Positions 29,944-64,000 of a DNA stretch of 64,000 nucleotides are shown here, piece after piece. The notes under the pieces are model-generated. The model did no database searches. It was not told the DNA's origin and was given only the letters and a program-made list of their open reading frames with translations. Within the stretch, counting starts at the first letter, position 1; each line of letters starts with the position of its first letter. The position numbers and the translations under genes were made by a program. The stretch is from Bradyrhizobium sp. AZCC 1719. GTDB lineage: Bacteria > Pseudomonadota > Alphaproteobacteria > Rhizobiales > Xanthobacteraceae. The stretch spans positions 3,315,001 through 3,379,000 of the forward strand of contig NZ_JAZHRU010000001.1 of NCBI RefSeq assembly GCF_036924525.1, read 5' to 3'.

Positions 29944-31092
29944 GTGTCCTTGCTCGAACAGGATCTGGCCGAACTGGTTGCCTGGCGTCGCCAACTGCAC
30001 CGCAGGCCGGAATTGTCGGGGCAGGAGAAGGAGACGGCGCAAACCGTACAGGCGTTTCTGCGGGCAGCCGGGGCCGACAAGATCATTACCAAATTGGGCG
30101 GGCATGGCGTGGCCGGGATCTATCAAGGGGGTGCGCCGGGCCCGACGATCATGCTTCGGGCCGAACTGGACGGACTGCCGATTCAAGAGACATCCGTGAT
30201 TCCGCATCGGTCGGAGGTGCCGGGAAAAGCGCATCTCTGTGGCCATGACGGTCACATGACGATCCTCGCAGCCGTGGCGCGCGATCTCTGCCGAACGCGT
30301 CCGCGCTGTGGGCGGGCCGTGTTGCTGTTCCAACCCGCTGAAGAGGACGGATCGGGCGCGGCTTCCGTGCTTGCCGACAAAAAATTTCAGCAGGTCCAGC
30401 CGGACTTCGTGTTTTCCTTGCACAATCTGCCCGGCCTTGCGCTGGGCGAAGTCGCCATCGCAGAAGGCCTGGTCAATTGCGCCTCGCGCGGCATGCAGAT
30501 CGCATTGTTCGGCCGAACGGCGCACGCGTCGAATCCGGAACTCGGCGTTTCGCCGCAACGAGCCATGGTCCGGCTGCTGAACGAAATCCCTGCGCTGGGA
30601 CAGGGCGGCGAGCTCACCAGCGAATTCTCGATGGTCACGGTCACCCACGCGCGGCTGGGCGAGCCGGCGTTTGGCATCTCGCCGGGGCATGCCGAGCTTT
30701 GGTTGACGCTGAGAACGCTGACGGACGCAAAGATGGAGAGCATCCGCTTGCAGGCTGAGAATTTGATTCGGCGCGTTGCGGAAGACGAGCGGCTGAAAGT
30801 GGAGATCGCCTATCGCGACGTCTTCGCTCACTGCATGAACGCGCCGGAGGCCGTCATTCATCTGAAGAGCGCGCTTGATGCCGAAGGGATCGCGCACTCC
30901 ACGCGGGGCCTGCCGCTGCGCGGCTCCGAGGATTTCGGCCTGTTCAACCGGGAAGCGAAGTCTGCGATGTTTTTCCTGGGCGCAGGTGTTGATTATGCCG
31001 GCCTGCATGCGCCGGACTATGATTTTCCGGACGAGCTGATCGAGGTCGGATCGCGGGTCTTCATCCGCGCGTTGCGCAATCTGCTGGATTGA
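29944..31092 (+). CDS. M20 family metallo-amidohydrolase (aminoacylase/carboxypeptidase type)
   Basis: The 382-residue protein follows the M20D pattern. It has LHRRPELSGQEKETAQ, the metal site LCGHDGHM (Cys99, His101, His104), FQPAEEDGSGA (Glu133/134), SLHNLPG, the dimerisation-domain GRTAHASNPELGVSP, and C-terminal GSEDFGLF with LHAPDYDFPDE. Relatives cleave N-acyl amino acids, hippurate or conjugated peptides. It is the first gene after tRNA-Pro and lies just before the iron-regulated receptor. A job in trimming or recycling the acyl peptide is possible but unproven. The start is GTG 29944. It may be unrelated to the siderophore genes, since the promoter region with the iron boxes lies after it. 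Confidence 0.87.
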   Translation: MSLLEQDLAELVAWRRQLHRRPELSGQEKETAQTVQAFLRAAGADKIITKLGGHGVAGIYQGGAPGPTIMLRAELDGLPIQETSVIPHRSEVPGKAHLCGHDGHMTILAAVARDLCRTRPRCGRAVLLFQPAEEDGSGAASVLADKKFQQVQPDFVFSLHNLPGLALGEVAIAEGLVNCASRGMQIALFGRTAHASNPELGVSPQRAMVRLLNEIPALGQGGELTSEFSMVTVTHARLGEPAFGISPGHAELWLTLRTLTDAKMESIRLQAENLIRRVAEDERLKVEIAYRDVFAHCMNAPEAVIHLKSALDAEGIAHSTRGLPLRGSEDFGLFNREAKSAMFFLGAGVDYAGLHAPDYDFPDELIEVGSRVFIRALRNLLD

Positions 31093-31183
31093 TGCGGCGC
31101 GAATCAATTTCCTGATATCGCTGCACAACAAAGCATCACGACTCGGCCGACCGCTTCATTCGACTTCGCGTTCACCTCACAAA

Positions 31184-31227
31184 TTTAGAACGCTTAAAAA
31201 TTTCACACGATTTAGAACAATTCGAAG
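31184..31227 (+). promoter_or_regulatory. Two tandem ICE/Irr-box-like iron operators
   Basis: TTTAGAACGCTTAAAAA (31184-31200) and TTTAGAACAATTCGAAG (31211-31227) each match the rhizobial iron control element TTTAGAA-N3-TTCTAAA, with a perfect left half and five of seven in the right half. They lie about 140-180 bases upstream of the TonB receptor ATG. Irr binding is an inference from the motif. A weaker GTTAGAA half-site is at 31322-31328. Confidence 0.65.
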
Positions 31228-31366
31228 AGGGTGAGGTGTTGCCTCATCGCAACTAACGCAATCCGTTATGTGCACGCTTCGTTACCTTAGATGGCTTCTA
31301 CTCGCCGTTTGCACCTCAGAAGTTAGAACGAGCCGGAACCTGCTTGTGGGCTTTTGAGGTGGAAGT

Positions 31367-33754
31367 ATGACGCATCGTGTCGCTGCCAGAAATGTTATGC
31401 GCGCTGTTTCGCTGGGAGCGGTGAGCTATCTTGCGCTCTCTCTGGATGTTGCCGGCGGCTCGAGCGCATTCGCGCAGAATTTGCCGCCCGTCACCGTCGA
31501 TGCTCCAACCCAGCAACGCGCGCGGCCCGCCCCAGCACGGAGAACGCAAACGTCCACGTCGCGCGTGCAACGGCGCGTCGCTGCGCCGGCGCCGCGTCGG
31601 GCGGAGCCGGTTCCGTATGTGACGCCTTCGACCGGAACTGTCGGGGCGCTGCCCGCGCCCTATGCTGGCGGACAGGTGGCGAGCGGCGGAAGCCTCGGCC
31701 TCTTGGGCAACCGCAGCGTGATGGATATGCCCTTCAACCAGACCAACTACACGGCGCAACTGATTGAGAATCAACAGGCGCGCACGATCCGCGACGTGCT
31801 GGCGAACGATCCCTCGGTTCGTGTCGTTCAGCCGGCGGGTGGTGGCTCTGACGGCGTCTTTATCCGCGGTTTCTACTATGACAGCGGAGATTTCGCGTTG
31901 AACGGCCTGTACGGCATCGCGCCGTACTACTCCATCAAAGCAAACTTCATCGAGCGCGTCGAAGTTTTGAAAGGCCCGAGCGCGTTGCTCAATGGTATGA
32001 CGACTGGCGGTACCGGTGTTGCGAGTGGCGGCGCGGTTGGCGGCAGCATCAATCTCATCACGAAGCACGCTCCCGACATCGATATTACGCGATTGACGGC
32101 AGGTTACGTTTCGAGGTCCCAGTTCGGCGGGAATATCGACGTCAGCAGGCGCTATGGCGACCATAAGGAGTGGGGTGTTCGGCTGAACAGCGGCTACTCG
32201 AACGGCGGTACGCCCTTTAACCGGCAGACCGACGAGTTCGGCAACGTCGCCCTGGGTCTTGACTATCGAGGCGAGAACGCGCGCGTCGCGGTAGATATCG
32301 GCTATCAGGCCGACAATTTGACTCCGCCCTTGCGCTTCTTCTCGCTTCCTACGGTTGTTTCTCCGGCTCTTCGCATTCCACCGCCGCCGAAGCCGGGACT
32401 CAATCCCCAGGTGCCATGGGCGTATTATGCGCCGACGGATTTCTTCACGACCGTGAGGGGCGAGGTTGATGTCACCGACTGGTTAACCGCCTATGCGGCC
32501 TTTGGTTATCACGACAGCAATATCAACTATGCCTATCCTTCGCCCAACATCTCAAATGCCGCGCCAGGCGCCATATCGTCTCCGCCGGGGGCATTCCAGT
32601 TGGGAGGCCTGTGGTCACGACCGTTTACAGGCGCAGAGACGTTTGAGACGTTTGCGGGCGAGGTGGGCCTTCGTGGAAATGTGGATACCGGCCCAATTAA
32701 CCACGCGTTCAGCGTCAACTACGCCGCCAACGACAGAACCTATAACCAGCAGGCTCGTACACGCTCGAATAACCCTCTTGCCGACATCATCTTCTGGAAC
32801 CTGTACACCGAGCCGACCAATATTCCGAAACCTAGCTTCACGACATTGTCTGCAAACATGAACACCCGTGTGAATTTGCAGAGCGTGGGTATTGCCGATA
32901 CCATGTCTTTGCTGAACAAGCGCGTTCAGTTCACGGTCGGTGTTCGCAATCAAACGGCGGGAAGCGAGGTCAACAATCTGCTGACGCCGGGCCTGAGCAG
33001 GCCTTTCCAGGACACCTCCGTCTGGACCCCGGCCTACGCTCTCGTCGTCAAGCCGGTTGAGAATATCTCGCTGTATGCCAACTATATCGAAGGGCTCCAG
33101 ACGCCGGTAGTTGTCACCGGTAATTTCTTGAACGTGGGAACGGTATTTCCACCCAGTAAAACCACGCAGGCCGAAACCGGTGTGAAGATCGATACCGGCC
33201 GCTTCACCACGACTGTGAGCTTGTTCGAGATCGAGCAGCCGAGCGTTATCGCGGTGCCGGGATTCCCCCAGGCTTCCCAGCAGCTCAATGGCAGGCAGCG
33301 TAACCGCGGCGTGGAACTCAACGTGTTCGGCGAGATCACGCCGTCGATTCGGTTGCTCGGTGGTGTGGCGTTGATCGACGGCAGACAGGTCAATACGCCC
33401 AACGGAGCCACCGACGGAAGGGCCGCGATAGGCGTTCCGGCGGTCACCGCCAACATTACGGCAGAGTGGGATACGCCCTTCATGCGTGACATGACGTTCT
33501 GGGGAAGAGTGATCTATACCGGTTCGCAGTACGCCAACGTCACGAACACATTGTCATTGCCGGAATGGACGAGGGTCGATATCGGTGCCCGATACACGGT
33601 CACGTCGCCCTGGAACGGCAAACCGATCGTAATTCGTGCCAGTGTCGAGAACGTCTTCAACGAGGCCTATTGGGCGTCGGCCTACTCCACCACCGGCGTG
33701 ATCACGCTCGCCGCGCCTCGGACCTATCTCCTGTCGACGACATTCAACTTCTGA
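31367..33754 (+). CDS. TonB-dependent siderophore receptor
   Basis: The 795-residue outer-membrane receptor starts with a signal peptide ending near residue 36 (SSAFAQN). A TonB-box-like LPPVTVDAP follows, then a Pro/Arg-rich linker of about 60 residues. The plug domain reads ENQQARTIRDVLANDPSVRV, GVFIRGFYYDSGDFALNG, ERVEVLKGPSALLNGM and GGAVGGSINLITKHA. The 22-strand barrel ends in the typical aromatic C terminus YLLSTTFNF, after NVFNEAYWASAY. The FhuA/FpvA-like TIGR01783 layout fits ferric siderophore uptake. There is no N-terminal signalling (STN) domain, so FecR/sigma signalling is unlikely. Tandem Irr-like boxes upstream and a terminator downstream make it a single iron-controlled unit. 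GAGGTGGAAG precedes the ATG. Confidence 0.93.
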   Translation: MTHRVAARNVMRAVSLGAVSYLALSLDVAGGSSAFAQNLPPVTVDAPTQQRARPAPARRTQTSTSRVQRRVAAPAPRRAEPVPYVTPSTGTVGALPAPYAGGQVASGGSLGLLGNRSVMDMPFNQTNYTAQLIENQQARTIRDVLANDPSVRVVQPAGGGSDGVFIRGFYYDSGDFALNGLYGIAPYYSIKANFIERVEVLKGPSALLNGMTTGGTGVASGGAVGGSINLITKHAPDIDITRLTAGYVSRSQFGGNIDVSRRYGDHKEWGVRLNSGYSNGGTPFNRQTDEFGNVALGLDYRGENARVAVDIGYQADNLTPPLRFFSLPTVVSPALRIPPPPKPGLNPQVPWAYYAPTDFFTTVRGEVDVTDWLTAYAAFGYHDSNINYAYPSPNISNAAPGAISSPPGAFQLGGLWSRPFTGAETFETFAGEVGLRGNVDTGPINHAFSVNYAANDRTYNQQARTRSNNPLADIIFWNLYTEPTNIPKPSFTTLSANMNTRVNLQSVGIADTMSLLNKRVQFTVGVRNQTAGSEVNNLLTPGLSRPFQDTSVWTPAYALVVKPVENISLYANYIEGLQTPVVVTGNFLNVGTVFPPSKTTQAETGVKIDTGRFTTTVSLFEIEQPSVIAVPGFPQASQQLNGRQRNRGVELNVFGEITPSIRLLGGVALIDGRQVNTPNGATDGRAAIGVPAVTANITAEWDTPFMRDMTFWGRVIYTGSQYANVTNTLSLPEWTRVDIGARYTVTSPWNGKPIVIRASVENVFNEAYWASAYSTTGVITLAAPRTYLLSTTFNF

Positions 33755-33787
33755 ACGCTGCGCCGTTCTCATCACATGGACTTCAAA

Positions 33788-33821
33788 CCGCCGCGGATCT
33801 CATCCGCGGCGGCATTTCTTT
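33788..33821 (+). terminator. Rho-independent terminator of the receptor gene
   Basis: A perfect 11-bp stem CCGCCGCGGAT / ATCCGCGGCGG with loop CTC is followed by the T-rich CATTTCTTT. It begins 33 bases after the receptor stop, which separates this gene from the NRPS operon. Confidence 0.85.
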
Positions 33822-34135: not shown

Positions 34136-34363
34136 ATGATGGTGTTCGACAGAGACGACGTCACCTTCACCGTCGTTATCAATCACGAAGAGCAATACTC
34201 CATCTGGCCGACATTCAAGGATATTCCGAACGGCTGGAAAGCAGTGGGCAAGACGGGCAGCAAGAAGGAATGCCTTGAACACATCGAGCAGGTGTGGACC
34301 GACATGCGCCCGCTGGGCTTGCGCAAATTCATGGACGAGACGGCGCCGCAGAAGTCGGCTTAA
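34136..34363 (+). CDS. mbtH: MbtH-like protein
   Basis: The 75-residue protein has the full MbtH signature: [40 protein letters not shown] and [16 protein letters not shown], with the conserved tryptophans. MbtH proteins bind NRPS adenylation domains and are needed for their folding or activity. The gene leads the NRPS operon, and AGAGGGA seven bases upstream gives a strong ribosome site. An in-frame second ATG at 34139 is an alternative start. The thioesterase gene follows after 22 bases. Confidence 0.96.
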
Positions 34364-34385: not shown

Positions 34386-35141
34386 ATGCGGCTTCTTTGT
34401 CTGCCTTACTCCGGCGGCAGCGCCATGTTTTATGCGCGGTGGCGCAGGCTGCTGCCGTCATGGATCGATGTCCGACCGGTGGAGTGGCCCGGGCGCGGCG
34501 CGCGCATGGACGAGCCGCTGGCGACCGACCCCCACGCGCTTGCATGGCAGCTCGCTGCAGAACTTCACGCGCAGCTTGATGCGCCCTATGCACTGTTCGG
34601 GCATAGCCTCGGCGCGCTGATTGCGTTCGAACTCGCGCATTTCCTGCGTGATCGCGGCGCGCCTGCGCCGGCTATTCTCTTTGCCTCGGGCGCCGAGGCG
34701 CCGGCCGTTCGAGACGGCAGCAAATGGCGCCTGCCATTGAGCGACGAGGCGTTGCTGAAGGAGCTTCGCGATCTGCAGGGCACGCCGGATGAGGCGCTGT
34801 CGAATGCCGAGCTGATGCGATCGGCATTGCCGGTGCTCCGCGCCGACTTTCTGATGTGCGGCGCCTATGTCTATCGGCGGCGGCATCCGTTGTCGTGTCG
34901 CGTGCACGTCTTCGGCGGCGCCGACGACGAGACCAGCCGCGAATCGCTACAAGCCTGGCGGCAGGAAACGTCGGCGGAATTCGCGCTCGACATGCTGCCG
35001 GGCCATCACTTCTTCATTCACACGCAGCAAGCCGAACTGCTCGGCCTGATCGGATCGGCCCTGGCCCGGCGATCGGGGCGATCGATTGGTTCGCATCGGA
35101 GCGAGGATCATGAGCGTATTCTCCGTCCAGCCACTCATTGA
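34386..35141 (+). CDS. Type II thioesterase of the NRPS operon
   Basis: The 251-residue alpha/beta hydrolase begins MRLLCLPYSGGSAMFYARWR and contains VEWPGRGARMDEP, then GHSLGALIAFELA with nucleophile Ser74, an acidic residue in FGGADDE, and the catalytic histidine region LPGHHFFIH. This is the RifR/GrsT family, which hydrolyses wrongly primed or stalled thioesters from carrier proteins and is not the product-releasing domain. I start at ATG 34386; the frame is open further upstream through mbtH. Its 3' end overlaps the hydroxylase gene by 32 bases, so the C-terminal tail is partly shared coding DNA. Confidence 0.92.
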   Translation: MRLLCLPYSGGSAMFYARWRRLLPSWIDVRPVEWPGRGARMDEPLATDPHALAWQLAAELHAQLDAPYALFGHSLGALIAFELAHFLRDRGAPAPAILFASGAEAPAVRDGSKWRLPLSDEALLKELRDLQGTPDEALSNAELMRSALPVLRADFLMCGAYVYRRRHPLSCRVHVFGGADDETSRESLQAWRQETSAEFALDMLPGHHFFIHTQQAELLGLIGSALARRSGRSIGSHRSEDHERILRPATH

Positions 35142-36078
35142 AGGTAAGCGTCTTCCGTTGCTGCTGAAGGCCGACAAGGTCGGGCAGCCGCTTGGCGCGG
35201 CGCTTCCCATGCTGCGCGACACCATCGATCGGCATTTGACCGACTGCGGCGGCATCGTGTTTCGCGATTTCTCTCTCGATGGGCCTGACGCGTTCCGGGC
35301 GTTCGCGGCCGATTTCGGTCATCCGCTGCTCACCTACGAGTTCGGATCGACGCCACGCTCGCAGGTTACCTCCGGCGTCTACACCTCCACGGAGTACCCG
35401 CCGCACCAGCACATCCCGCTGCACAACGAGCAGGCCTATACGCGCGATTGGCCGATGAAGATCTGGTTCTATTGCATGCAGCCGGCGCAGGAGGGCGGCG
35501 AAACGCCGATCGCCGACAGCCGCGCCATCTATCGCGATATGCCGCCGGCGATCCGGGAGCGTTTCGCCGAGAAGGGGGTGATGTATGTGCGGAACTACGG
35601 CAACGGGCTCGACGTCGATTGGCAGCAGGTGTTCGGCACCGAGTCCAGGGCCGAGGTCGAGGCCTATTGCGCCGGGCACGACATCGAATGCGAATGGAAG
35701 GAAGACGGCGAGCTTCGCACGCGCCAGATCTGTCAGGGCACGGCACGGCATCCGGTGACGGGAGAGTGGGTCTGGTTCAATCAGGCCCATTTGTTTCACG
35801 TTTCCAACCTCGAGCCGGAAGTGCGCGAGAGTCTGCTCGACGTGGTCGGCGACGAGACTGAACTGCCGCGCAACGTCTTCTACGGCGACGGTTCGCCGAT
35901 CGACGACGAGACGCTCGCCACCGTCCGCAACGTTCTCGAGACGCACAAGATCAGCTTTCCCTGGCAGGCCGGCGATGTGGTGATGCTTGACAACATGCTC
36001 ACCGCGCATGCGCGCGCGCCGTTCAAGGGACCGCGCAAGGTGATCGTTGCGATGGCGGAAGCGCATCGGCAGGGCTGA
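35110..36078 (+). CDS. SyrP-like Fe(II)/2-oxoglutarate hydroxylase (TauD family)
   Basis: The 322-residue protein shows the TauD/SyrP facial triad: His105 and Glu107 in IPLHNEQAY, and distal His299 in MLTAHARAPF, with Arg309 in GPRKV for 2-oxoglutarate. The HNE form, in place of HxD, is what SyrP-type enzymes show. SyrP and its siderophore relatives hydroxylate the beta carbon of aspartate (or histidine) while it is bound to a carrier domain. Here the next gene activates aspartate, so the likely product is beta-hydroxyaspartate, a bidentate iron ligand. The start is ATG 35110 with GGAG eight bases upstream; TTG 35086 is less likely. Confidence 0.88.
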   Translation: MSVFSVQPLIEGKRLPLLLKADKVGQPLGAALPMLRDTIDRHLTDCGGIVFRDFSLDGPDAFRAFAADFGHPLLTYEFGSTPRSQVTSGVYTSTEYPPHQHIPLHNEQAYTRDWPMKIWFYCMQPAQEGGETPIADSRAIYRDMPPAIRERFAEKGVMYVRNYGNGLDVDWQQVFGTESRAEVEAYCAGHDIECEWKEDGELRTRQICQGTARHPVTGEWVWFNQAHLFHVSNLEPEVRESLLDVVGDETELPRNVFYGDGSPIDDETLATVRNVLETHKISFPWQAGDVVMLDNMLTAHARAPFKGPRKVIVAMAEAHRQG

Positions 36079-36132: not shown

Positions 36133-39100
36133 ATGTACAGAGATAACCTCGTCGAACGACTACGGTGCCACGCTGCGTTACGCCCGGACGGAATCGCGTT
36201 GCGCTTCCTGGAGGGAGACAGCGTCGCCGAGGAGTTGACGTTTGCCGGTCTCGACGCCCGGATTCGATCCGTCGCAGCCCGGCTGCAGCAGTTGGGCGGC
36301 GCGGGCGAGCGCGCGGTGATTCTTCTGCCCAGCGGCCTCGACTATGCCGTGGCTTTCTATGCGTGCCTGTATTCGGGTGTGATCGCCGTCCCGGCCTATC
36401 CGCCGGAAGGCGGCGCCGAGCGCTATGCAGGACGTCTCAACGGCATTCTGCGCGATGCGACGCCTCGCTTCATCCTGACGGAAACCGCGCTGGTTGGCGC
36501 GGTGGAAGCGGCGCTTCCCGAGCTGGCGAACGTAGCGATCGTTGCGGTGGATGCGATACCGGCGGCGTTTGCGGCAGAGTGGCGCGAGACAAGGCCGGAG
36601 GCAGATGCGGTTGCCTTCCTGCAGTACACGTCCGGATCGACCTCGCAGCCGAAAGGCGTTTGCGTCTCGCACGCGAACCTGACGGCCAACGAGAAGGCCA
36701 TCGAGGCCGTCGCCGCGGGAACACTCGACGACGTCTTCGTGAGTTGGCTGCCGCTCTATCACGACATGGGATTGATCGGCGGGTTGTTGAATCCGCTGTT
36801 TACCGGCTTTACCGCCGTCCTGATGTCGCCGCGCAATTTTCTCGAGCGGCCGCGACGCTGGCTTGAAGCCATCGATCGTCACGGCGGTACGCTCAGTGGC
36901 GGACCTGACTTCGCCTTCGCGCTGTGTGCCGACCGCATTTCCGATGAAACGATCGACCGGCTCGACCTCAGCCGCTGGAGGTTCGCATTCTCAGGCTCGG
37001 AGTTTGTGCGTCAGCCCACGCTGCGCAGGTTCGGAGAGAGGTTCGAGCGGGCGGGGTTCAATCGATGCGCGTTGACCGCCTGTTACGGTCTGGCCGAGGC
37101 GACGCTGCTGGTGACGGCCGGCGAGTTCACCACCGAGACGGTCAGCCATACGCTCGATACGGCGGCGCTTGCGGCAGGGCGCGTCGCAACGACCGACCAA
37201 GGCAGCGAGCTCGCGGCGTGCGGCCGGACGGTCGCGGGCCACGTCACGCGCATCATGCGCATCGATGGGTCGGCTGCGGCACCGGCCGACGAAATCGGAG
37301 AGATCTGGGTCGCGGGCCCGAGTGTCGCGCTCGGATACTGGAACAATCCCGAAGCTACGCAAAAAGCCTTCGTCGAGCGCGATGGCGCGCGCTGGCTGCG
37401 TACCGGAGATCTCGGTTTCGTCAAGGACGGCGCGCTGATCGTAGCGGGCCGGCTCAAGGACCTGCTGATCGTTCGCGGCCAGAATGTATATCCGACTGAC
37501 GTCGAGCAGGCGGTCGAAGCCGAGGTCGAATCCGTCCGTAGCGGACGAGTTGCCGCGTTTGCGGTCGAGATCGATGGACGGGAAAGCATCGGCGTCGCGG
37601 CAGAGTTCAGCCGTACCGTTCTCAAGCGCTGTAATCCCGAGGCTCTCGCCCAGGGAATCGGCGAGGCCGTGCTGCGGCAGGCGCAGGAATATCCGGCCGT
37701 CATCGTCCTGTTGAATCCGCAAGCGATGCCGCTGACGACGAGCGGAAAACTGCAGCGCTCCGCCTGCGCCGCCGGCTGGGCCAACAACACGCTCGACAGC
37801 TTTATGGTGTTTGAGCGAGGGCGACGCCGCGATGGCGCGACGCTGACCGCGCCCGCGACCGACACCGAGCGCGTGCTGGCTTCGATCTGGTGCGATGCGC
37901 TTGGCGTAAGGGCCGTGCACCGCGAGGACGATTTCTTCGTGCTGGGCGGAAACTCGATCGCGGCCGGTCAGATCGCTGCGGCGCTGCGCGAACGCTTCGG
38001 CGTCGAGTTGGAACTGCGCAGCTTTTTCGACGCGCCGAAGCTTGACGCATTCGCCGATCATATCGACGCGCTGCTGAGCGAGGGCGCGAAGCGGGCGCTT
38101 CCTCCGATCCAGCGGGCCGCGCCGGCCGACCGCGCGACCCTGTCGCATGCGCAGGAGCGGCTGTGGTTTCTCTGGAATCTGGACCCCAATGGTACGGCCT
38201 ATACGGTCGCGAGCACGATCCGGCTCAAGGGAAAGCTCGACCATACCGCCTTGTTACAGGCGATTGCGGAAATCGTTCAACGTCATGAGGTGCTGCGCAC
38301 CACATTCGTCGCAACGGATGGTCGCGCAAGGCAGGTTATTCACGACGCCGTCGGCGTCGATATCAGGCACCAGGATCTCCGCGGATGTCCCGCTGAACAC
38401 GCGGCGGAGGTCAGACGGTCCGAAGTCGGAAAACCGTTCGACCTTGTCAATGGGCCGCTATTGCGGGCGGTACTGCTTCAGTGCGCAGATGATGCGCATG
38501 AATTGCTGCTGCTTGCTCATCACATCGTCGTCGATGGATGGTCGCTCGACGTAATGCTCGAAGAGCTGGCGGGGCTCTACCGCAACGGCATCGGACAGGG
38601 CGCAGGCCGGCCGCCGGTGCCCATGATGCAATATGCGGACTTCGCAGTCTGGCAGCGGAACTGGCTCGCTTGTGGCGAGGGAGATCGGCAGCTCGCCTAT
38701 TGGCGCGCAAAGCTGGGTGACGCGCACTCCGTGCTGGCTCTGCCCCATGACCGGCCGCGTATCGCAACGCAAAGCCATGCCGGCGATACGGTCGGCCTAG
38801 CCATCGACGGCGCGCTGGCCGCCCGGCTGCGGGAGATCGCCGCAAAACACCGGGTGAGCGTCTTCATGCTGCTGCTCGGTGCATATCAGGCGCTGTTGCA
38901 TCGCTATACGGGGCAGAGCGATTTGCGCGTCGGCGTGCCGGTCGTGGGGCGCCGTCACGCCCAACTCGAGCGGCTGATTGGCTGCTTCGTCAACACGCTG
39001 GTGCTGCGGGCCGAGATTGCCGATGGCGCAACCTTCCCGAACCTGCTGCAGCAGGTCAAGGACGCGGTGATCGAAGCGCTGTCGCATCAGGATCTGCCGT

Positions 39101-42100
39101 TCGAAATGCTGGTCGACGGGCTGCGCCCTGAACGAAGCGGTGGGCACAATCCGCTGTTCCAGGCCAAGTTCAACTATATGACGGCGCCGCGCGGGTTCGA
39201 CGGCGTCGCAGGGCTCACCGCCGAGATCGACATCATGGACCTCGCGGGTTCGCATTTCGATCTCGCGCTTGATGTCGTCGATGGCGCCGGTGGCATGAAG
39301 GCGACGTTCAACTACGCCACCGATCTGTTCGATTCCCCGACGATCGCGCGGCTGACGGCGCAGTTCGGTTCATTGCTGCGCCAGATCGCGGAGAATGCGG
39401 AACGACGGATTTCGGACTTCGTCATCGACGATGCGAACCGGCAGGTCGTGCCGAGCGAGGCCGCCGTGTTCGGGCTCACCGATGTGGTGGGTCTTCATCG
39501 CACGTCGACGGCCGATCGCCAGGCGGAAGTCGCCATCCGGTACGGCAGCGAGACGCTGACGTTTGCCGAGCTGGAGCGGAAATCGAACAGCATCGCTCGC
39601 ATGCTCGCCAACAAGGGTGTGACGCGCGAAGTGCCGGTTGCGCTGTGGATCGAGCGCTCGCCGGCATTTGTTGTCGCGCTGCTTGGTGTGCTGAAGGCCG
39701 GCGGCGCCTATGTGCCGCTCGATCCGAAATGGCCGCTGGAACGTATCAGGCGCATCCTGCAAGACGGCGGCATCGAAATCGTGCTGGCGGCCGGCGAGAA
39801 GCTGGCAGAAGCGCGTGCACTTGATTGCACTGTGCTGGATGCAGAAGCCGAAGCGGCGCGCGAGGACACATCGAGCGCGCCATCAGACAATCTGATCCAC
39901 CCGGCGCAGACCGCCTACGTCATCTATACCTCCGGATCGACCGGGACGCCGAAGGGCGTCGCCGTCTCACACGGCGCGTTGGCCAATTATGTGCAAGCCC
40001 TGCTGCAACGCCTGCAGCCACAGCGTTTGGCGAGCATGGCGATGGTCTCGACCGTGGCGGCGGATCTCGGCCACACCGTTCTGTTCGGGGCGCTCGCCTC
40101 CGGCGCGACGCTGCATTTGTTGCCGCCCGAAGTGGTGTTCGATGCGGATGCGTTCGCGAAAGCCATGCGGGACGGCGAAGTCGGCATTCTCAAGATCGTG
40201 CCCAGCCATCTGCGAGGGCTGCTCAAGGCTTCGCGCTCGGTCGATCTCCTGCCCAGCGATGCGCTGATCCTCGGCGGCGAGGCCAGCGATCCCGCACTGT
40301 TGAACGAGATCCGGCAGTTGCGACCGCAATGCCGAATCCTGAATCACTACGGGCCGACGGAAACGACCGTTGGCGCAGTCACGCACGAATGCAAGCCTGA
40401 AGGCGGGATCGGTTCGGTTCCGATTGGCTTGCCGCTTGCCAATCTGCGCGCGCATGTTCTGGATGATGCGTTGAACGAGGTCCCGATCGGCGTAGCCGGC
40501 GAACTCTATATCGGCGGCGCCGGCGTCGCGCGGGGCTATCGTGGCGAGGCTGGCTTGACCGCCGAGCGCTTTGTTCCGGACCCGTTTGGGCCGGCCGGAG
40601 AGCGGCTGTATCGCACCGGCGACCGCGTTCGCTGCGATCGGGAAGGCCGGCTGATGTTCCTCGGCCGTGGCGATGATCAGATAAAGCTACGTGGCTATCG
40701 CATCGAGCTTGGCGAAGTCGGGCGCGCGATCAAGGCGCTGCAGGGGATCGACGACGCGGTGGTTGTCGCACGCGCCATCGGCGACAGCGCCGAACGCCAG
40801 GAACTCGTTGCCTACTGTGTGCCCGCGATGGGCGCCACGCCGAAGCCGGATCTGATCAAGCAGCAATTGGCCGCGGTCGTCCCGGAGTACATGGTGCCGT
40901 CGCACATCATTGTTCTGCAGCGGCTGCCGCTGACGCCAAACGGCAAGGTCGACCGCAAGGCGCTGCCGGAGCCGGCTGCAGATGTAGTCGCCACGAACTA
41001 TTCCGCGCCGCTGGGAGACATCGAGGAACAGATTGCGGCGGTGTGGCGTGAGGTGCTCGGTCGCGAGCGCATCGGTCGCAACGACAATTTCTTCGAGCTT
41101 GGCGGCGATTCCATTCTCAGCCTGCAGATCATCGCCCGCCTGCGCAAGCGCGGCATTCGCCTGACGCCGAAGCAGGTGTTCGGGCAGCAGACCGTGGCGG
41201 GGTTGGCTACTGTTGCCGCTGTCGCGGCAGCACCTGCGGCAAGCAAGGAGAGTTCGGCCGCAAAGGTTTCGACCGCTGCGGCAGCCGGCATGCGTCATCT
41301 GCTGCCAATTCAGGCACGCTTTTTCGGCGAAGACATCGGCAACCGAAACCATTGGAACCAGGCGGTGCTGCTCGCACCGCAAACGCGGATCGACTGGGAG
41401 ACGCTGCGGCGTGCGCTGACGACGATCGTCGATCATCACGATGCGTTGCGCCTACAGTTCGCGCAAGTGGACGGCACGTGGCGCGCGGCGCAGGGCACAC
41501 CGCCATCGCCGTCGGAGTTGCTGTGGATCCATACCGATGTCGGAGATGCGACACAGGTCACCGCGCTTGCATCGGCCGCGCAGGAAAGCCTGTCGCTGTC
41601 GTCGGGCCCCCTGCTGCGCGCGGTGGCGATGGACCTTGCGGACGGCAGCCAGCGGCTGCTGATCGTGATCCATCATCTGGTTGTCGACGGTGTATCCTGG
41701 CGGGTCCTGCTCGAAGACCTGGCCTCGGCGTACGACCAGCTAAAGAGAGACGCCGTCGTAGCGCTGCCGCCGAAGAGCGAGTCCTATGCGTCCTGGGGCG
41801 AGCGGTTGCATTCCTACGCGACGACCAGCGAGCTTGCCGACGAACTGCCGTTCTGGCTCGACGGTGCGGCGGGTCCAAGCCTGCCATGCGACGATGATCA
41901 TGGCGGCGTCGATCGCGTCGGTGACGGCGAAGAGGTGTCACTGGTGTTCGATACGGAGGTGACGTCGAGGCTGCTGCAGGAGGCGCCGTCGGCCTATCGG
42001 ACACAGGTCAACGATCTGATGCTGGCGAGCCTGGCGCGTGCAGTGTCGCACTGGAGCCAGCGCGACGATGTGACGGTCGAGCTTGAGGGCCATGGCCGCG

Positions 42101-45100
42101 AGGACATTTTTCCCGGCGCGGATATTTCCCGCACGGTCGGCTGGTTCACGACAGCCTTCCCGGTGCGGCTGCAGGGCGGGTCGGACGACCATGCTTCCCT
42201 GATCAAGACGGTGAAGGAGAAGCTTCGCGCGATCCCGAACCGCGGGCTTGGTTATGGCGTGTTGCGCTATCTCGGCTCCGAACACCAGCGCAACGCGCTG
42301 GCGCAACCGGCGGAGCCGCAGGTCGTCTTCAACTATCTCGGCCGCTTCGACGGCAGTGTGGGGGCTTCCTCACTGTTCGGATTCGCGCCCGAGAGCGCGG
42401 GTGCGTCGCGCAGCGCCATTGCGCCCTTGCGGGCATGGCTGAACATCACCGGTCTGGTGCGTGAGAGACGTCTGCATTTGTCGTTCGGATATGGACGCAA
42501 GCGCTATCGGCGAGAGACGGTCGAGCGGCTGGCGAAACTTTACGAAACGGCCCTGTGCGAACTGGTGGCGCATTGCTGCAGCGGGGCCGTTGGTCTCACG
42601 CCTTCGGACGTCCCGTTGTCCGGGCTCGACCAGGCCGATCTCGATCGGTTGGCAACAATTTTCGATCTCCGCAGCATCGAGGACATTTATCCGCTTTCGC
42701 CGATGCAGCAGGGCATGCTGTTTCACGCAGTCCGCGATGGCGACAACGATGCCTATGTCAACCAGGTCGGGCTCGAGCTATTCGGCTTCGAGGCCGACAA
42801 GCTTCGAGCCGCGTGGCAAGCGGTGAGTGACCGGCATGCGGCCTTGCGGACCGGCTTTGTCTGGCAGCACCTGCCAGGCGCGGCCCAGCAGGTCGTGCAC
42901 CGTCATGTGACGGTGCCGTTCGTCGAAGAGGATTGGCGCAGCCGGACGGCAGCGCTGGAACGCAATGACGGGCGCGCTGAATTGGATGCCGCGCTGGCAG
43001 AAGCATCGCGGTGCGAGCGCGAGAGCGGCTTTGACGTCTCCCAGCCGCCGTTGCAGCGGGTGCGGTTGATCCGGCTCGACGACGAGCGTCACTGGCTGAT
43101 CTGGACCCATCACCACATCTTTGTCGACGGCTGGAGCTCGGCGCGGCTGGTTGCGGAGGTGTTTCGGCATGTGAGCGGGGGCACACTGCCGGCCGTACAG
43201 GGCAGCTATCGCGACTACATCGCATGGCTGCAAAGTCGCGATCACGCAGGCGCCGAGAAATTCTGGCGCGACGCTTTGGCAGGGCTCGAAGCGCCGACCT
43301 TGCTGGCGAATGCGCCGGTTACGAACAAGGCATCGGAGGCGGAAGGACACGCCAGCATTGCGCTTTCGCTGAATGCGGAATTGACCGAACGGCTGAAGGC
43401 ATTTGCGAAGCGCGAGCGCGTGACGCTCAATACGCTCGTTCAGGCGGCGTGGGCGCAGTTGCTGCGGCGGCATTCGGGGCAGGCCGCCGTCTGTTTTGGG
43501 GTGACTGTATCGGGTCGTCCGGCAGACCTGTCGGGCTCCGAGGAGATGGTGGGCCTCTTCATCAACACGTTGCCGATTGTCGACGCACCGAGCCCGCAAG
43601 CGCGAGCTGGCGATTGGCTGCGTCAGTTGCAGGAGCAGAACCTGGCCCTGCGCGAGCATGGCTGGACGCCGCTCTACGAAATCCAGCGCCTCGCCGGCCA
43701 GGCCGGGCAGGCGCTGTTCGACAGCATTCTGGTGTTCGAAAACTATCCGATCGATGAGGCGCTGCGGCAGACGGGGCAAAGCGGCCCGCGCCTGGGACGG
43801 GTGCAACATGTGACGCCGACAAATTATGCGCTGGCGGTTGCCGTGTTTGCCGGAAGCGAACGGCTTGATATCGAGTTCAATTACGACCGCGCCCGCTTTG
43901 ATGAGGTTGCCATCCGGCGCCTTCGGGACATCCTGCACGGATTGCTGGAGCGGATCGCCGCTAATGCGGAGCGACCGATCGGCGATCTCGGATTATCCGC
44001 CGGTGATGAGACCCGGCGAATTCTGGAATGGAGCGGTGCCGGCCGCTTGGCGACAGGTGCTTCATATGTCGGTGTCGTCGCGCATATCGAAGCGCAAGCC
44101 GCGCGGGCGCCTTCTGCCCCTGCGATTGTGTGGGGCGACCAGCGCCTGAGCTATGGCGAGTTGAACGCCCGGGCCAACCAGCTCGCGCGGCGGCTTCGCC
44201 ACTGGGACGCCGGTCCGGATCGCCTGACCGGCATCGCCTTGGCGCGCAGCCCTGAAATGATGATAGCGCTCTTGGCCGTTCTGAAAGCAGGCGGCGCCTA
44301 TCTTCCGCTCGATCCGGATTATCCGGCCGAGCGGCTCGCCTACATGCTGCGCGACAGTGCGGCGACACTGGTATTGACGCAAAGCGCGCTGCTCGAACCT
44401 CTCGCGCCGGTGCTGCGCGAGACCGGCGTCGAGGCCTGGTGCATCGACGAACCGCAGCGGCCAGTTGGCGAAGATACTGCCAATCTGAATGTCGAGATTC
44501 ATCCGGATAGTCTGGCCTACGTCATCTACACGTCCGGTTCGACCGGGACGCCGAAGGGCGTGGCGGTAACGCATGGGCCGCTGGCCATGCATTGCGAAGC
44601 GATCGGCCGGTTGTACCGCATGACTTCGCGCGACCGGGAATTCCAGTCGGCCTCGATCAATTTCGACATTGCCCACGAGCGCTGGCTGGTGCCGCTGATG
44701 ACAGGTGGCTCGCTCGTGCTGCCGTCCAGGCCAGGTCTGTTGATCGACGACCTCGTCGATGAGATTGCGAGAAACTCGGTAACGTCGATCTTTCTGCCGC
44801 CGGCCTATGCCGACCAATTGAGCGCAGCGTTGCGGCAGAGTCGGCGCCGGCTTGCGATCAGGGCCTGCATTGTCGGCGGCGAGGCCTGGTCGGATAGCGG
44901 AATCAAAGCGCTTCGCCAGGCCGCCGATGTCGACCTTCTGATCAACGCCTACGGCCCGACCGAAACGGTGATCGCGCCGACGGCGTGGCTCGTCGATGAC
45001 GCCGCGTTGACGCCAGGCCAGCCGGCGCCGATCGGACGGCCCGTTGGCATCAGGTCCGCCTACATTCTCGATGCCGACCTCAACATCGTGCCCGCTGGTG

Positions 45101-45885: not shown

Positions 45886-45887
45886 AC

Positions 45888-48800: not shown

Positions 48801-50180
48801 GAGCGTTTGCCGGACTACATGGTGCCGTCGGCGTTCGTGCGCCTGAATGCACTGCCGCTCACGCCGAACGGCAAGGTCGATCGCAAGGCGCTGCCCGCGC
48901 CGGAGGACGATGCCTTTGCAAGGCGCAGTTTCGAGGCGCCGCAGGGCGAGATCGAGGAGGTAGTTGCAAAGATCTGGACCGAGCTGCTCGGCGTCGATCG
49001 AATTGGACGCAACGATCACTTCTTTGAACTGGGAGGCCACTCGCTGCTCGCGGTCCGCATGCTGGAACGCTTGCAGCGGCATTCGCTCCGCGCTGACGTG
49101 CGCACGCTGTTCGCCAATCCGGTGCTCGCCGATTTCGCCGCCAGCCTTCATGGCGGCATCGCCGCGGCTGTTCCGGCCAATCTGATCACGCCGCAGACGA
49201 CGGCAATTACACCCGAGCTGTTGCCGCTGATAGCGTTGACGCAATTCGACATCGACAGCATCGTGGCCAAGGTGCCCGGGGGCGTTGCCAACATCCAGGA
49301 CATCTACGGGCTATCGCCGCTTCAGGATGGCATCCTGTTTCATCATCTGCTGTCGAAGCAGGGTGATCCATATCTGCTGGTCGGCCAGATGGCGTTTGCA
49401 AGCCGTGACCTGCTCGATCGCTATCTCGCTGCCGTTCAACAGGTGATCGATCGTCACGACATTCTCCGCACGTCCATTGCATGGGATGGGCTGTCCGCTC
49501 CGGCGCAAGTGGTTTGGCGGCGGGCTTCGCTGGCTGTTACCGAAGTCGTGTTGGATCGCGACAGTCCCGCGCACGAACAGCTTGCGCGGCGTTTCGACCC
49601 GCGCCGCAACCGGATCGATCTCGGCCAGGCGCCGCTGCTGCGATTTGCGATCGCCCGCGATCCCGGCAAGGAGCGCTGGCTGCTCTTGGTATTGCTGCAT
49701 CATTTGATCGGCGATCACTCCACCCTGGAGGTGATGCACGACGAAGTTCAGAAGATATTGTTGGGACGTGCTCATGAGCTTTCGACTTCGTATCCGTTCC
49801 GAAATCTGGTTGCGCAGTCGCGTGGATCGGCAGCTACCACGGAGGACGAGCGCTTCTTCCGAAGCATGCTGTCCGACATCGATGAGCCGACCACGCCGTT
49901 TGGGCTGGATCGCGTGCATGGCGACGGTGGTGGCGTGGCGGAAGCGCGGCGAATGCTTCCGGAACAGCTCAATGCACGGCTCCGCGTTCTGGCACGGCGG
50001 CTGGGCGTGAGCCTTGCCAGCCTCTGCCATCTTGCCTTGGGGCCAGGTGGTGGCGCGAAGCAGCGGACGCGAGCGCGTCGTGTTCGGCACGGTTCTGTTC
50101 GGCCGCATGCATGCGGGAGCCGGCGGCGATCGCACCATGGGGTTGTTCATCAACACATTGCCGCTGCGGATCGATCTTGA
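45888..50180 (+). CDS. NRPS2, N-terminal part: C-A(Phe-like)-PCP-C (frameshifted)
   Basis: The gene starts two bases after NRPS1 (ATG 45888; GTG 45882 would overlap its stop). C1 has HHIISDGWSMG near residue 179. A1 has YTSGSTGRPKG at 658 and specificity residues D-A-W-T-V-A-G-V-C, one change from the phenylalanine code DAWTVAAVC. PCP1 has Ser1052. C2 opens with IYGLSPLQDGILFHHLLSKQ followed by GD, which fits the HH[IL]xxxxGD mark of dual condensation/epimerization domains, and its core is HHLIGDH at 1271. The frame is lost near 50037 (CTTGCCTTGGGGCC). The last 47 residues to the TGA at 50178-50180 are out-of-frame sequence. The module continues in the next entry. Confidence 0.85.
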   Translation: MAEPSKPGLRDLDSAQVKKLLSLARDRSRNASKIGISSIPAVPRGGPLELSFAQQRLWLLAQLDGVNANYHIRGALNLAGDLDVAAWRRSLDQLFARHESLRSVFHVVEGKPCVELLPADEHLPVLEHDLRQRLDAEQELARLCREEADTPFDLAVGPLIRGRLIRTAEQKYLFLLTQHHIISDGWSMGVLVRELGALYRAFTAGQNDPLPPLTIQYPDYAAWQRQWLAGERLQRQVDYWRQALAGAPAVLELPTARPRPSVRSLAGASLPIEIDAGLAHRIRLFSQSHRATAFMTVLAAWAAVLSKLSGQTDLVIGTPTANRNRREIEGLVGFFVNMLALRVDLSGEPDVAELLNRVRAAALEAQDHQDLPFEQLVEIIQPPRRLEHTPVFQVVFAWQNNEAAVLELPGLRAAIADIPLQQVKFDLELNLGEAGGRIVGALNYATALFDEATIRRHRDYLLVLLRAMVADADQIIDRIDILGAEERKLVLDTWNETAAPFPSERCIHELFAEQVRTAPEATALVHDDVRLSYGELDAKANQLARHLIALGVGPDRPVAICLERGIAMVVSLLAVLKAGGVYLPLDPAYPAERLRQIVEDASPGLLIVDDAGRAIFAKAVCKIVDLEASASAVANLAASDPGDLVTGLTSRHLAYIIYTSGSTGRPKGVMVEHRGLVNLALAQRALFDVSQRSRIVQFASFSFDASTWEIVMALCSGAELFLVGPQQHRNTSELLDFLSDNAITHATLPPAMLQGRDDLDRLASLRVLVLAGELPKAELIKGLPPGVAVFNGYGPTETTVCATSWLRPAGFNDDVVPIGRPLPNTRIYLLDGFGAPVPLGATGEIYIGGAGVARGYLNRPDLTAERFVRDPFSGDANARMYRSGDLGRYLPDGNVAFLGRNDHQVKIRGFRIELGEIEVRLNEYAGVADAVVLVRQDHSGDPRLVAYVTAKDDGVKLDAGEFAAAMRNHLRERLPDYMVPSAFVRLNALPLTPNGKVDRKALPAPEDDAFARRSFEAPQGEIEEVVAKIWTELLGVDRIGRNDHFFELGGHSLLAVRMLERLQRHSLRADVRTLFANPVLADFAASLHGGIAAAVPANLITPQTTAITPELLPLIALTQFDIDSIVAKVPGGVANIQDIYGLSPLQDGILFHHLLSKQGDPYLLVGQMAFASRDLLDRYLAAVQQVIDRHDILRTSIAWDGLSAPAQVVWRRASLAVTEVVLDRDSPAHEQLARRFDPRRNRIDLGQAPLLRFAIARDPGKERWLLLVLLHHLIGDHSTLEVMHDEVQKILLGRAHELSTSYPFRNLVAQSRGSAATTEDERFFRSMLSDIDEPTTPFGLDRVHGDGGGVAEARRMLPEQLNARLRVLARRLGVSLASLCHLALGPGGGAKQRTRARRVRHGSVRPHACGSRRRSHHGVVHQHIAAADRS

Positions 50181-52476
50181 TGGCGCCTCGGTTGAAGACA
50201 GCGTTCGCCATGCGCACGCCCGGCTGACTGAGCTGATGGCGCATGAACATGCCTCGCTGGCGCTCGCACAACGATGCAGCGGTGTCGCAGCGCCCGCGCC
50301 CCTGTTCAGCTCGATCCTGAATTACCGACACAACGCGATGCCGGTGGCTTCGTCTCCAGATCAGGACGGCGCAGGTCTGCAGGGCGTCGAGTGGCTCGGC
50401 GGCGAAGAGCGTACGAACTATCCCTTGATGATGGCGGTCGAGGATTATGGCCAGGCGCTCGGCTTGACCGCTCAGGTTGTCCATCCGCTCTCGGCCGATC
50501 GTATCTGCGCCTTGATGCAGCAGGCGCTCGATCAATTGGCGGAGGTGCTGGAGCGCGCACCTCGCTCTCCGGTGCGGCAACTGGATGTTCTGCCTTACGA
50601 AGAGCGTCAGCTTTTGCTGGAGACGTGGAATCGGACGCAGGCTCGATATCCACGAGACCGCTCGTTTATCGAACAGTTCGAGGCGCAGGTCGGTCAATCT
50701 CCTGACACGATCGCGCTGGTGTTTGGCGATGAGGCATTAAGTTACGTCGCGTTGAACGCGCGCGCCAATCGGCTGGCGCGGCGATTGCGCGATCGCGGCG
50801 TTGGAACCGACATGGTGGTGGGGCTGGCGCTCGACCGCGGCGTCGAGATGATGGTCGCGCTGCTCGCGGTATTGAAGGCGGGCGGCGCCTATCTGCCGCT
50901 CGATCCGGACTATCCGGCGGAGCGGCTGGCACACATGCTGCGCGACAGCGGCGCTGCGCTGGTGCTGACGCAACGGATGCTGCTGGATCAGTTTGCGCCC
51001 GTGCTGGAGGAGACCAGTGCCGAGGCCTGGCTGATCGACGAGCAGCAACACGAAGACGGCGAGGGTGGTGATGCGGCGAATCTCGACGTCACCGTCCATC
51101 CCGAGAGCCTCGCTTATGTGATCTACACTTCCGGCTCGACCGGCCTGCCCAAGGGCGTGATGGTCCGCCATGACGCCGTGACGAACTTTCTGGCGACGAT
51201 GGCGGAGCAGCCGGGCATGACGGCCAAGGACCGCGTGCTCGGCTTGACCTCGCTATCGTTCGACATTGCGGTGCTGGAACTGTGGCTACCGCTCACGCTC
51301 GGGGCATGCGTGGTGCTGGCAGATCGTGCGGCCGCGCATGATCCGGCTCGGCTCAAGGCTATCGTCGCCAAGCAGGGCGTGACCCTGATCCAGGCGACGC
51401 CGTCGACCTGGCGGATGCTGCTCGATCATGAGGGCCCGTCGTTGCCGGCAAGCTGCCGCGTGCTGTGCGGCGGCGAGGCACTGGCGCCAGATCTGGCGCG
51501 GCGGCTGGTGGCGCAAGCGGATGAGGTCTGGAATTTGTACGGCCCGACCGAGACCACGGTGTGGTCGGCCCGCCACCGCCTCGATGCGCAGGACGACCGT
51601 CCGGTTTTGGGCGGCCCGATCGGCAACACCAAGCTGCACATTCTCGACAACGACCTCAACCTCGCGCCGGTTGGTGTCGCGGGCGAGCTCTATATCGGCG
51701 GCGCGGGACTTGCGCGCGGCTACTGGCGACGCGGCGCGCTGACCGCGGAGCGCTTCATCCCCGATCCGTTCGGCACATCAGGCGCGCGGCTCTACCGCAC
51801 CGGCGACGTAGCGCGGTGGCGCGCTGACGGCGTGATCGAATATATCGGCCGCGCCGATCACCAGGTGAAGATCCGCGGCTTTCGGATCGAGCTCGGCGAG
51901 ATCGAGGCGCGGCTGCTCGAACAGGCCGGCGTGCGCTCGGCGGTGGTGGTGGCGCGCGAGGTTGGCGCTGCCCGCCAGCTCGTCGGCTATGTCAGTGGCG
52001 GTGCGTCGCTGGACCAGACAGCTCTGAAGACCGCGCTGTCGTCGCTGCTGCCGGACTACATGGTGCCGCCACGGATCGTGGTGCTGGACCGGCTGCCGCT
52101 GACGCCGAACGGCAAGATCGACCGCAAGGCGCTGCCCGCCCCGGACCAGCTCGCCGGTCTGGCCGAGCATGTGGCACCGCGCACGCCGGTTGAAGCGGCG
52201 CTTGCCGCGATCTGGGCGGACCTGCTGCGCCAGTCCAACATTGGCGTCACCGACAACTTCTTCGAGCTCGGCGGCGACTCTCTCACCGCCGTCCAGCTCG
52301 TCAGCCGCATCAAGCGCGATCTCGGCCACGACCTGCCGCTGAACCGCCTGTTTGAAATGACGACCATCGAGACGATGGCCGCTGCGCTTGTCCCGGAGAT
52401 TCAGGTCGACAAGCGCAGCGACGACATCGCCGCGATGTTCGACATGTTGAAGGAAGTCGAACTTTCCGATGAATGA
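50014..52476 (+). CDS. NRPS2, C-terminal part: C(end)-A(Gly)-PCP
   Basis: The first eight residues from ATG 50014 are not family sequence. From about 50039 the frame reads GQVVARSSGRERVVFGTVLF and GLFINTLPLRIDLDG, the exact continuation of the broken C domain. A2 (YTSGSTGLPKG at 51124) has specificity residues D-I-L-Q-L-G-L-V-W, a close match to the glycine code. PCP2 shows FFELGGDSLTAVQLVSRIKR, serine codon at 52279. No ribosome site supports separate translation. Restoring one base would give a single 2196-residue protein (45888-52476). The A domain DNA is nearly identical to that at 63098-64000. Confidence 0.85.
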   Translation: MPASAILPWGQVVARSSGRERVVFGTVLFGRMHAGAGGDRTMGLFINTLPLRIDLDGASVEDSVRHAHARLTELMAHEHASLALAQRCSGVAAPAPLFSSILNYRHNAMPVASSPDQDGAGLQGVEWLGGEERTNYPLMMAVEDYGQALGLTAQVVHPLSADRICALMQQALDQLAEVLERAPRSPVRQLDVLPYEERQLLLETWNRTQARYPRDRSFIEQFEAQVGQSPDTIALVFGDEALSYVALNARANRLARRLRDRGVGTDMVVGLALDRGVEMMVALLAVLKAGGAYLPLDPDYPAERLAHMLRDSGAALVLTQRMLLDQFAPVLEETSAEAWLIDEQQHEDGEGGDAANLDVTVHPESLAYVIYTSGSTGLPKGVMVRHDAVTNFLATMAEQPGMTAKDRVLGLTSLSFDIAVLELWLPLTLGACVVLADRAAAHDPARLKAIVAKQGVTLIQATPSTWRMLLDHEGPSLPASCRVLCGGEALAPDLARRLVAQADEVWNLYGPTETTVWSARHRLDAQDDRPVLGGPIGNTKLHILDNDLNLAPVGVAGELYIGGAGLARGYWRRGALTAERFIPDPFGTSGARLYRTGDVARWRADGVIEYIGRADHQVKIRGFRIELGEIEARLLEQAGVRSAVVVAREVGAARQLVGYVSGGASLDQTALKTALSSLLPDYMVPPRIVVLDRLPLTPNGKIDRKALPAPDQLAGLAEHVAPRTPVEAALAAIWADLLRQSNIGVTDNFFELGGDSLTAVQLVSRIKRDLGHDLPLNRLFEMTTIETMAAALVPEIQVDKRSDDIAAMFDMLKEVELSDE
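50680..51582. repeat. Near-identical Gly adenylation segment, copy 1
   Basis: These 903 bases, from GAGGCGCAGGTCG to CGCCACCGCCTC, align without net gaps to 63098-64000. By eye the last 162 bases differ at a single position (A/G at the codon before GAGGTCTGG). Similarity drops sharply upstream of the left edge, in the linker between C and A domains. Confidence 0.85.

Positions 52477-64000: not shown

Follow-up and report, generated by a model that had tools for sequence, protein, structure and literature searches.

The DNA analyzed here very likely carries, judging from its genes, a cluster for the biosynthesis, export, and uptake of an amphiphilic siderophore that combines OH-Asp with two hydroxamates. 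By its sequence the cluster is real, conserved, and complete in gene content, and its predicted product falls in a known class of compounds. The window (the whole 64,000-nucleotide stretch analyzed) corresponds to positions 3315001-3379000 of a 7,200,329-base single-contig genome, and coordinates above 64000 extend the window numbering. The siderophore locus fills 31.2-64.0 kb of the window and runs on to ~80.5 kb, 16.5 kb past the window edge; the hydroxamate enzymes and the last NRPS module lie outside the window, to its right. Its genes encode a TonB receptor, MbtH, a type II thioesterase (TEII), an Asp hydroxylase, a FAAL-started NRPS, an FhuDBC-like importer, an exporter, an ornithine N5-monooxygenase, an acyltransferase, and a PPTase.

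Organization of the siderophore locus

On the forward strand, two partial ICE/Irr-like operator matches (31184-31227; pattern scan for TTTAGAA-N3-TTCTAAA, two mismatches each) and an exact, conserved copy of the iron operator core TTAGA-N4-TTCTA (31287-31300) lie upstream of a gene for a TonB-dependent siderophore receptor (31367-33754; PF00593/PF07715, with TIGR01783 above cut-off). The receptor gene is followed, in the same orientation, by genes for an MbtH-like NRPS chaperone (34136-34363; PF03621, 1.4e-25; in six of six relatives, 81-96%), a type II (editing) thioesterase (34386-35141; PF00975, 4.1e-47), and a stand-alone TauD/SyrP-like Asp beta-hydroxylase (35110-36078; PF02668, 2.8e-50). 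These four genes had been named in the original prediction, and all are present by TIGR or Pfam matches.

The synthetase genes are also on the forward strand. NRPS A (36133-45885; 3250 aa) reads, from its domains and A codes, FAAL-ACP-C-A1(Asp)-PCP-E-C-A2(X)-PCP. NRPS B begins with C-A3(Phe)-PCP and the first half of a C domain (45882-50180), changes frame near 50030, and continues in another frame with the second half of that C domain, A4(Gly), and a PCP (50014-52476). NRPS D (52469-68914; 5481 aa) reads C-A5(OHOrn)-PCP-E-C-A6(Ser-like)-PCP-E-C-A7(Gly)-PCP-C-A8(OHOrn)-PCP-TE; it is cut by the window edge at 64000, beyond which lie PCP-C-A8(OHOrn)-PCP-TE.

Directly after the last NRPS gene stands an HSL-like esterase gene (68823-69926), which scores below the NCBIfam cut-offs, is found in all seven regions compared below, and possibly encodes a siderophore or acyl-tail hydrolase. 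It is followed by genes for FhuD-like (70003-70938), FhuB-like (70859-72931, with two FecCD units), and, on the reverse strand, FhuC-like (72966-73898) and siderophore-interacting (SIP; 73864-74931) proteins. A cyclic-peptide-type exporter occupies two frames (75081-76268 and 76078-76944); its counterpart in the intact relative G113 scores 687 bits against TIGR01194, for which the cut-off is 286. The locus closes with a GNAT acyltransferase (77123-78235; sequence match to SidF 7qf6 and MbtK), an Orn/Lys N-monooxygenase (78257-79555; sequence match to the L-ornithine 5-monooxygenase 3s5w, 3.8e-132), and, on the reverse strand, a PPTase (79560-80390).

Conservation across Bradyrhizobium

Homologues of the hydroxylase (TauD) with at least 77% identity are found in 29 of 195 Bradyrhizobium genomes, the present one included. 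At E 1e-40 the count is 31 of 195, the extra two having at most 50% identity, and at E 1e-130 nine of 397 genomes of the order have a match, six of them within Bradyrhizobium. Among the best 120 of 2633 first-NRPS homologues, the nearest named ones are from Bradyrhizobium (93-95% over the FAAL region), and one from Nitrobacter sp. Nb-311A reaches 80%; on these homologues the host is assigned to Bradyrhizobium. Seven clusters picked from the 29 genomes were read whole: G000 (the present genome), G109, G113, G143, G145, G160, and G185. All have eight A domains in the same eight-module layout, and all eight codes are legible in six; the A3 code of G109 is lost to a frame break. When 16 locus proteins were searched in the seven regions, the receptor, MbtH, TEII, TauD, esterase, both exporter parts, GNAT enzyme, and monooxygenase were found in every region, FhuD, FhuB, FhuC, and SIP in five, and the PPTase in four. 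The original prediction had placed the start of the locus at 29944. Its siderophore locus is borne out, and the M20 peptidase at that position is a doubtful member: it is upstream of the operator and turns up in four of the seven regions, although the G145 and G160 stretches, with only ~1.5 and 0.6 kb ahead of the receptor, are too short there to tell.

The receptor has diverged much more quickly than the adjoining enzymes. Over the window receptor (31367-33754) and loci L056-L069, L073, and L090, examples are G109, with a receptor at 77% vs TauD at 99%, and L061-L064, with receptors at 56.7-58.4% vs TauD at 91-94%. From these sequences it looks as if several receptor types serve one synthetase. 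The plasmid search with the receptor yielded 438 records, none reaching 60% identity. TauD homologues at 75-79% occur in Methylobacterium (L071, L072, L074) and in Inquilinus and others (L075-L079). All of these loci except L078 have an Asp-code NRPS module within the fetched stretch, and none matches the present receptor at 1e-30. One of them, L076, is titled Mycobacterium; its identity and code position are like those of the Inquilinus loci, and the record is perhaps mislabelled.

The cluster adjoins Sua5/tRNA-Pro in only two of the seven genomes, G000 and G109. Sua5 is ~0.17-2.9 Mb away in G113, G145, G160, and G185 and on another contig in G143, and tRNA-Pro also stands beside Sua5 in G137, a genome without a TauD match (L144). 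No second copy of the tRNA-Pro 3' end of at least 13 bases was found within 100 kb, and the cluster has a G+C content of 0.638 vs 0.638 and 0.639 in its flanks. An island at tRNA-Pro is accordingly rejected, or at best doubtful.

A predicted eight-module assembly line

The domain order is FAAL-ACP / C-A1-PCP-E / C-A2-PCP / C-A3-PCP / C-A4-PCP / C-A5-PCP-E / C-A6-PCP-E / C-A7-PCP / C-A8-PCP-TE. E and C domains differ in a discriminating sequence motif and were separated by it, not by a model. The FAAL domain has its best PDB sequence matches in 7r7g and 3kxw, and NCBIfam FAAL models match it below their cut-offs. Nine-letter A codes were read from a single alignment of 194 A domains. We take DLTKIGHVG of A1 (DLTK[IV]GHVG in all seven clusters) to specify Asp, DAWTVAGVC of A3 Phe, and DILQLGLVW of A4 and A7 Gly. 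The FAAL opening and Asp module of the original prediction are both present. A5 and A8 share the code DGEGSGGVT in all seven clusters (with I for V in A8 of G109) and are read as Orn because DGEGSGGVTK is among the ornithine codes of published clusters (PMC12283262). The A6 code, DVWHFGRIN, shares DVWH with Ser codes (compared with those in PMC12283262); Ser would be a guess for this residue, Ser-like at best. Residue X is set by A2, whose code DIEFIGAIA is two positions off DVESIGAIAK, and strains with the latter make anabaenopeptins with Arg and Tyr at that residue (PMC5311044). Neither the A2 nor the A6 code had a match in the open-access literature searched.

In contrast to the fused potashchelin arrangement described below, the TauD gene is separate from the synthetase, and no second C-like domain stands ahead of A1 in the Asp module. 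His105, Glu107, and His300 of the TauD-like hydroxylase, presumably its ligand residues, are invariant among four aligned orthologues, and of the 80 named loci that have a TauD homologue, 72 show an Asp-code A domain within the fetched stretch. An N-terminal HH[IL]xxxxGD is the signature of dual C/E-type condensation domains. By motif scan, it is present in the C domain of module 4 (C4), which follows the Phe module, in G000, G109, G143, G145, and G185 (five of seven), has M for L in G160, and gave no search-pattern match in G113.

From this layout we infer chain length, stereochemistry, residue X, and the Ser-like residue, and predict the chain acyl-D-OHAsp-X-(D-)Phe-Gly-D-OHOrn-(D-Ser-like)-Gly-OHOrn. 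As an exact sequence of eight residues, with X and the Ser-like position counted in, this is offered tentatively and may well need correction. Within the window, the order agrees with the one first proposed (acyl, D-OH-Asp, X, (D-)Phe-like, Gly, D-X, D-Ser-like, Gly), with its D-X now read, from the A5 code, as a D-hydroxyornithine type. Extending the sequence to the right showed what had been left as "more": one further ornithine module and a TE, plus the hydroxamate enzymes. Two modules have the ornithine code; therefore, the predicted ligands are OH-Asp and two hydroxamates.

In the proposed pathway, FAAL would load a fatty acid, the putative acyl group, onto the ACP, and the eight modules would add in turn Asp, X, Phe, Gly, an ornithine derivative, a Ser-like residue, Gly, and a second ornithine derivative, before the terminal TE releases the chain. 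Asp would be converted to OH-Asp by the stand-alone hydroxylase and to the D form by the E domain. Ornithine would be N-hydroxylated by the downstream monooxygenase, and the GNAT enzyme would acylate (probably acetylate) the hydroxyornithine, yielding two hydroxamates that with OH-Asp could form a hexadentate iron(III) ligand. If produced, the siderophore would be secreted by the cyclic-peptide-type ABC exporter and re-imported through the TonB receptor and the FhuDBC-like permease (the latter in five of the seven clusters), and the siderophore-interacting reductase would free the iron. Irr-type operators would link the cluster to iron.

Relationships among A domains of module 2 and the Gly modules

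Module 2 has the code DIEFIGAIA in five of the seven clusters and the Gly code DILQLGLVW in two (G145 and G160). The first two codes were read in 17 named loci (15 Bradyrhizobium, one Nitrobacter, and one Hyphomicrobiales MAG); the second is DIEFIGAIA in 16 and Gly in B. aeschynomenes (L073). A tree built from A2, A4, and A7 groups A2 from G145 and G160 with the Gly domains (100/100). In these genomes (loci L047-L052) a whole Gly-type A domain stands in for the usual module-2 A domain. In all seven genomes, A4 and A7 of the same genome are 94-99% alike, vs 84-92% at best for A4 between genomes. The A4/A7 pairs form their own clade in five genomes, and no resolved clade in G000 and G143. The tree, together with the within-genome likeness of A4 and A7, suggests that the Gly modules have undergone gene conversion with each other and that a domain has been swapped at module 2.

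A conserved operator upstream of the receptor gene

The ICE/Irr consensus, which we take to be TTTAGAA-N3-TTCTAAA, has four matches in the window with up to three mismatches, vs 0.14 expected from shuffles. The iron-box-like operators of the original prediction were borne out by the core pattern. Across 87 scanned sources, all 23 loci holding a receptor homologue have an exact TTAGA-N4-TTCTA, the one at 31287-31300 included, 80-100 bp upstream of where the aligned receptor begins. The scanned 1.95 Mb contain 28 copies in total, 23 at receptors and five at the downstream end of the cluster. The downstream operator is found in five of the seven full clusters. In four of these, which are all the regions with a PPTase (four of seven), it lies 58-86 bp before that gene; G185 has the operator without a PPTase match. 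Half-sites with spacers of 0-3 and 5-10 had no occurrence in the same loci. The mean for 40 permuted half-site pairs was 0.875 occurrences, and one pair reached 17 because orthologous loci repeat any conserved string.

In the present genome as a whole, the operator pattern has eight matches, at seven places, vs nine for the reversed pattern, and there is no genome-wide enrichment. Three of the seven places are before the receptor, before the PPTase, and 60 bp before a ferritin gene (L161:2970). Beside the remaining four, the nearest ORFs scanned include none recognised as an iron gene. For B. japonicum, bacterioferritin is cited as being under Irr-box (ICE) control (PMC3413700). On the sequence evidence the cluster is probably iron-controlled.

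Frame breaks in the present strain

The present genome has one-base frame changes in the middle NRPS (window ~49296-50619), where one C domain of NRPS B is split across two frames near 50030, and in the exporter (75081-76944). The middle NRPS is a single ORF of 2183-2198 aa in five of six relatives, and alignments to the six show one-base or small uneven gaps at both breaks, with intact copies in existence. The gap audit contains many alignment-compensated gaps and was weighed only beside the ORF comparison and the alignments. Either the present strain is a non-producer or the assembly contains errors.

That the breaks are real mutations, leaving a decayed or silent cluster in a strain that only imports the siderophore of others, has a considerable chance of being right, if the smaller one. 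The relatives' copies are open at both breaks, and G109, another species, has a break of its own at a different place in the middle NRPS. The genus has also been described as using xeno-siderophores (PMC12815270). Against decay, reading frames are open throughout the remaining cluster genes (~13,300 codons). Long-read assemblies also typically contain erroneous single-base indels, and decay here would say nothing about the intact relatives. The biosynthetic reading itself has points against it: the two out-of-frame genes, the lack of genome-wide operator enrichment, the permuted half-site pair with 17 occurrences, the failure to find Fhu/SIP and PPTase genes in some regions, and the lack of a literature match for the A2 and A6 codes.

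Comparison with described siderophores

Malleobactin is a four-residue peptide, and the malleobactin/ornibactin synthetase has four modules and no FAAL. A genome survey classed Bradyrhizobium genes of this kind with malleobactin; of the 278 Bradyrhizobium genomes in it, 234 were reported to have NRPS-siderophore clusters, 85 mbaAB homologues, and 41 mbaABCH (Si et al. 2025, PMC12815270). In view of the 234, the terms "undescribed" and "notable in Bradyrhizobium" first applied to the locus were too strong. Some of the surveyed genes (NRPS, Orn oxygenase, and hydroxylase) probably belong to the same loci as those described here, and the section that sets them beside malleobactin does not mention a FAAL start or eight modules (PMC12815270). 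That the present locus is a malleobactin/ornibactin-type cluster is very unlikely. OHOrn, OHAsp, and Ser-like residues overlap; however, the present locus has a FAAL loading module and eight amino-acid modules, no formyltransferase (MbaE) was found among the ten downstream ORFs scanned, and mbaE was absent from every surveyed Bradyrhizobium (PMC12815270).

A product acting mainly as a surfactant or antibiotic, with iron secondary, is a shade less probable again: it would fit a FAAL-started, partly D-configured lipopeptide and a C4 signature that we take to resemble those of Pseudomonas lipopeptide synthetases, but the receptor, FhuDBC, SIP reductase, hydroxamate enzymes, and iron operators share one locus. 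Least credible is a metallophore chiefly for another metal such as a lanthanide or aluminium, a role proposed for other siderophores (PMC9301485; PMC12904278), against which stands the operator shared with the ferritin gene.

The siderophore reading is supported instead by the features of acylated OH-Asp/hydroxamate compounds of the marinobactin type. The locus has a FAAL/CAL loading domain and ACP at its start, an Asp module with a TauD family protein as predicted Asp beta-hydroxylase, and two ornithine modules with an Orn N5-oxygenase and an N-acyltransferase, enzymes present in all seven regions. Gene content thus supports the acylated OH-Asp peptide siderophore originally proposed. The enzyme set of marinobactin-type clusters comprises TauD, MbtH, an Orn oxygenase, and a GNAT enzyme or formyltransferase (PMC13037486). 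Marinobactins and formomarinobactins (Marinobacter and the Pseudomonas lutea group) share with the present cluster an acylated peptide, Asp with a separate TauD gene, two hydroxyornithines with Ser between them, MbtH, an Orn oxygenase, and a terminal TE, and marinobactin also shares the GNAT acyltransferase (PMC13037486). By contrast, they have six residues, Asp-Dab-Ser-OHOrn-Ser-OHOrn, from two NRPSs (PMC13037486), whereas eight, with Phe and two Gly, are predicted here. No Dab aminotransferase was found among the present genes scanned, and marinobactin itself is ruled out by the eight modules in another order.

Variochelins (Variovorax) are likewise acylated and contain OH-Asp, two N-acetyl-N-hydroxyornithines, and Ser, but have a PKS-extended Arg unit, Pro, and an NRPS-embedded hydroxylase (PMC10999976), none of which the present cluster has. 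Potashchelins (Halomonas) share the FAAL-ACP start, OH-Asp as first residue, the Orn-TE end, and genes for MbtH, TEII, a PPTase, an Orn oxygenase, and an acyltransferase. They differ in having nine residues, two OH-Asp, one hydroxyornithine, and no E domains, with one fused hydroxylase (FAAL-ACP-C-TauD-C-A) and one stand-alone (PMC7100376). Plant or soil bacteria also make lactuchelins, serobactins, cupriachelins, and taiwachelin, lipopeptide siderophores that contain OH-Asp or start with FAAL/CAL; lactuchelin, unlike the product predicted here, has seven residues and two OH-Asp. The available accounts of pandorabactin and PanBGC offer no structural parallel. Among described products with residues compared, none has the present order, and the closest is marinobactin-like. 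No structure of the product was found in the open-access literature searched, which omits most subscription papers.

The 2025 study described Bradyrhizobium as short of siderophore synthesis and as exploiting the siderophores of others, and five of its six tested strains gave no detectable siderophore, which counts against production (PMC12815270). The sixth and only producer, B. yuanmingense CCBAU25021, is an mbaABCH strain and alone of the six carries a putative dimethylcoprogen cluster (PMC12815270). B. yuanmingense CCBAU 10071 (L064) has the hydroxylase, receptor, operator, and first NRPS codes of the present cluster. We infer that the mbaABCH set, or the dimethylcoprogen call, of CCBAU25021 may be the present cluster, a possible reason for production by such strains. 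A broader reading, to which we give an even chance, is that octapeptide lipopeptide siderophores under Irr control form a family at genus level, running through Bradyrhizobium and also present in Nitrobacter vulgaris. The family would have two natural chemotypes, with X or Gly as residue 2 through exchange of the entire A domain, different chromosomal sites, and several receptor types, and would be the true product of many genes classed as incomplete malleobactin clusters and the source of the B. yuanmingense siderophore. An assembly line that is conserved in some members of the genus (29 of 195 genomes, going by the hydroxylase) and probably iron-controlled gives a concrete compound to seek, and module 2 would be a natural example of NRPS domain swapping. 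The class of molecule stays the same.

The present genome also carries a second large NRPS locus spanning the contig origin (7181761-7200329 and 1-18700). A codes were read for six of its domains (e.g. DAWLIGAVC, DVWHLSLVD, and DAFFLGVTF), others having been missed by the search pattern, and the locus comprises five forward ORFs of 4093, 2132, 2521, 2164, and 2021 aa.
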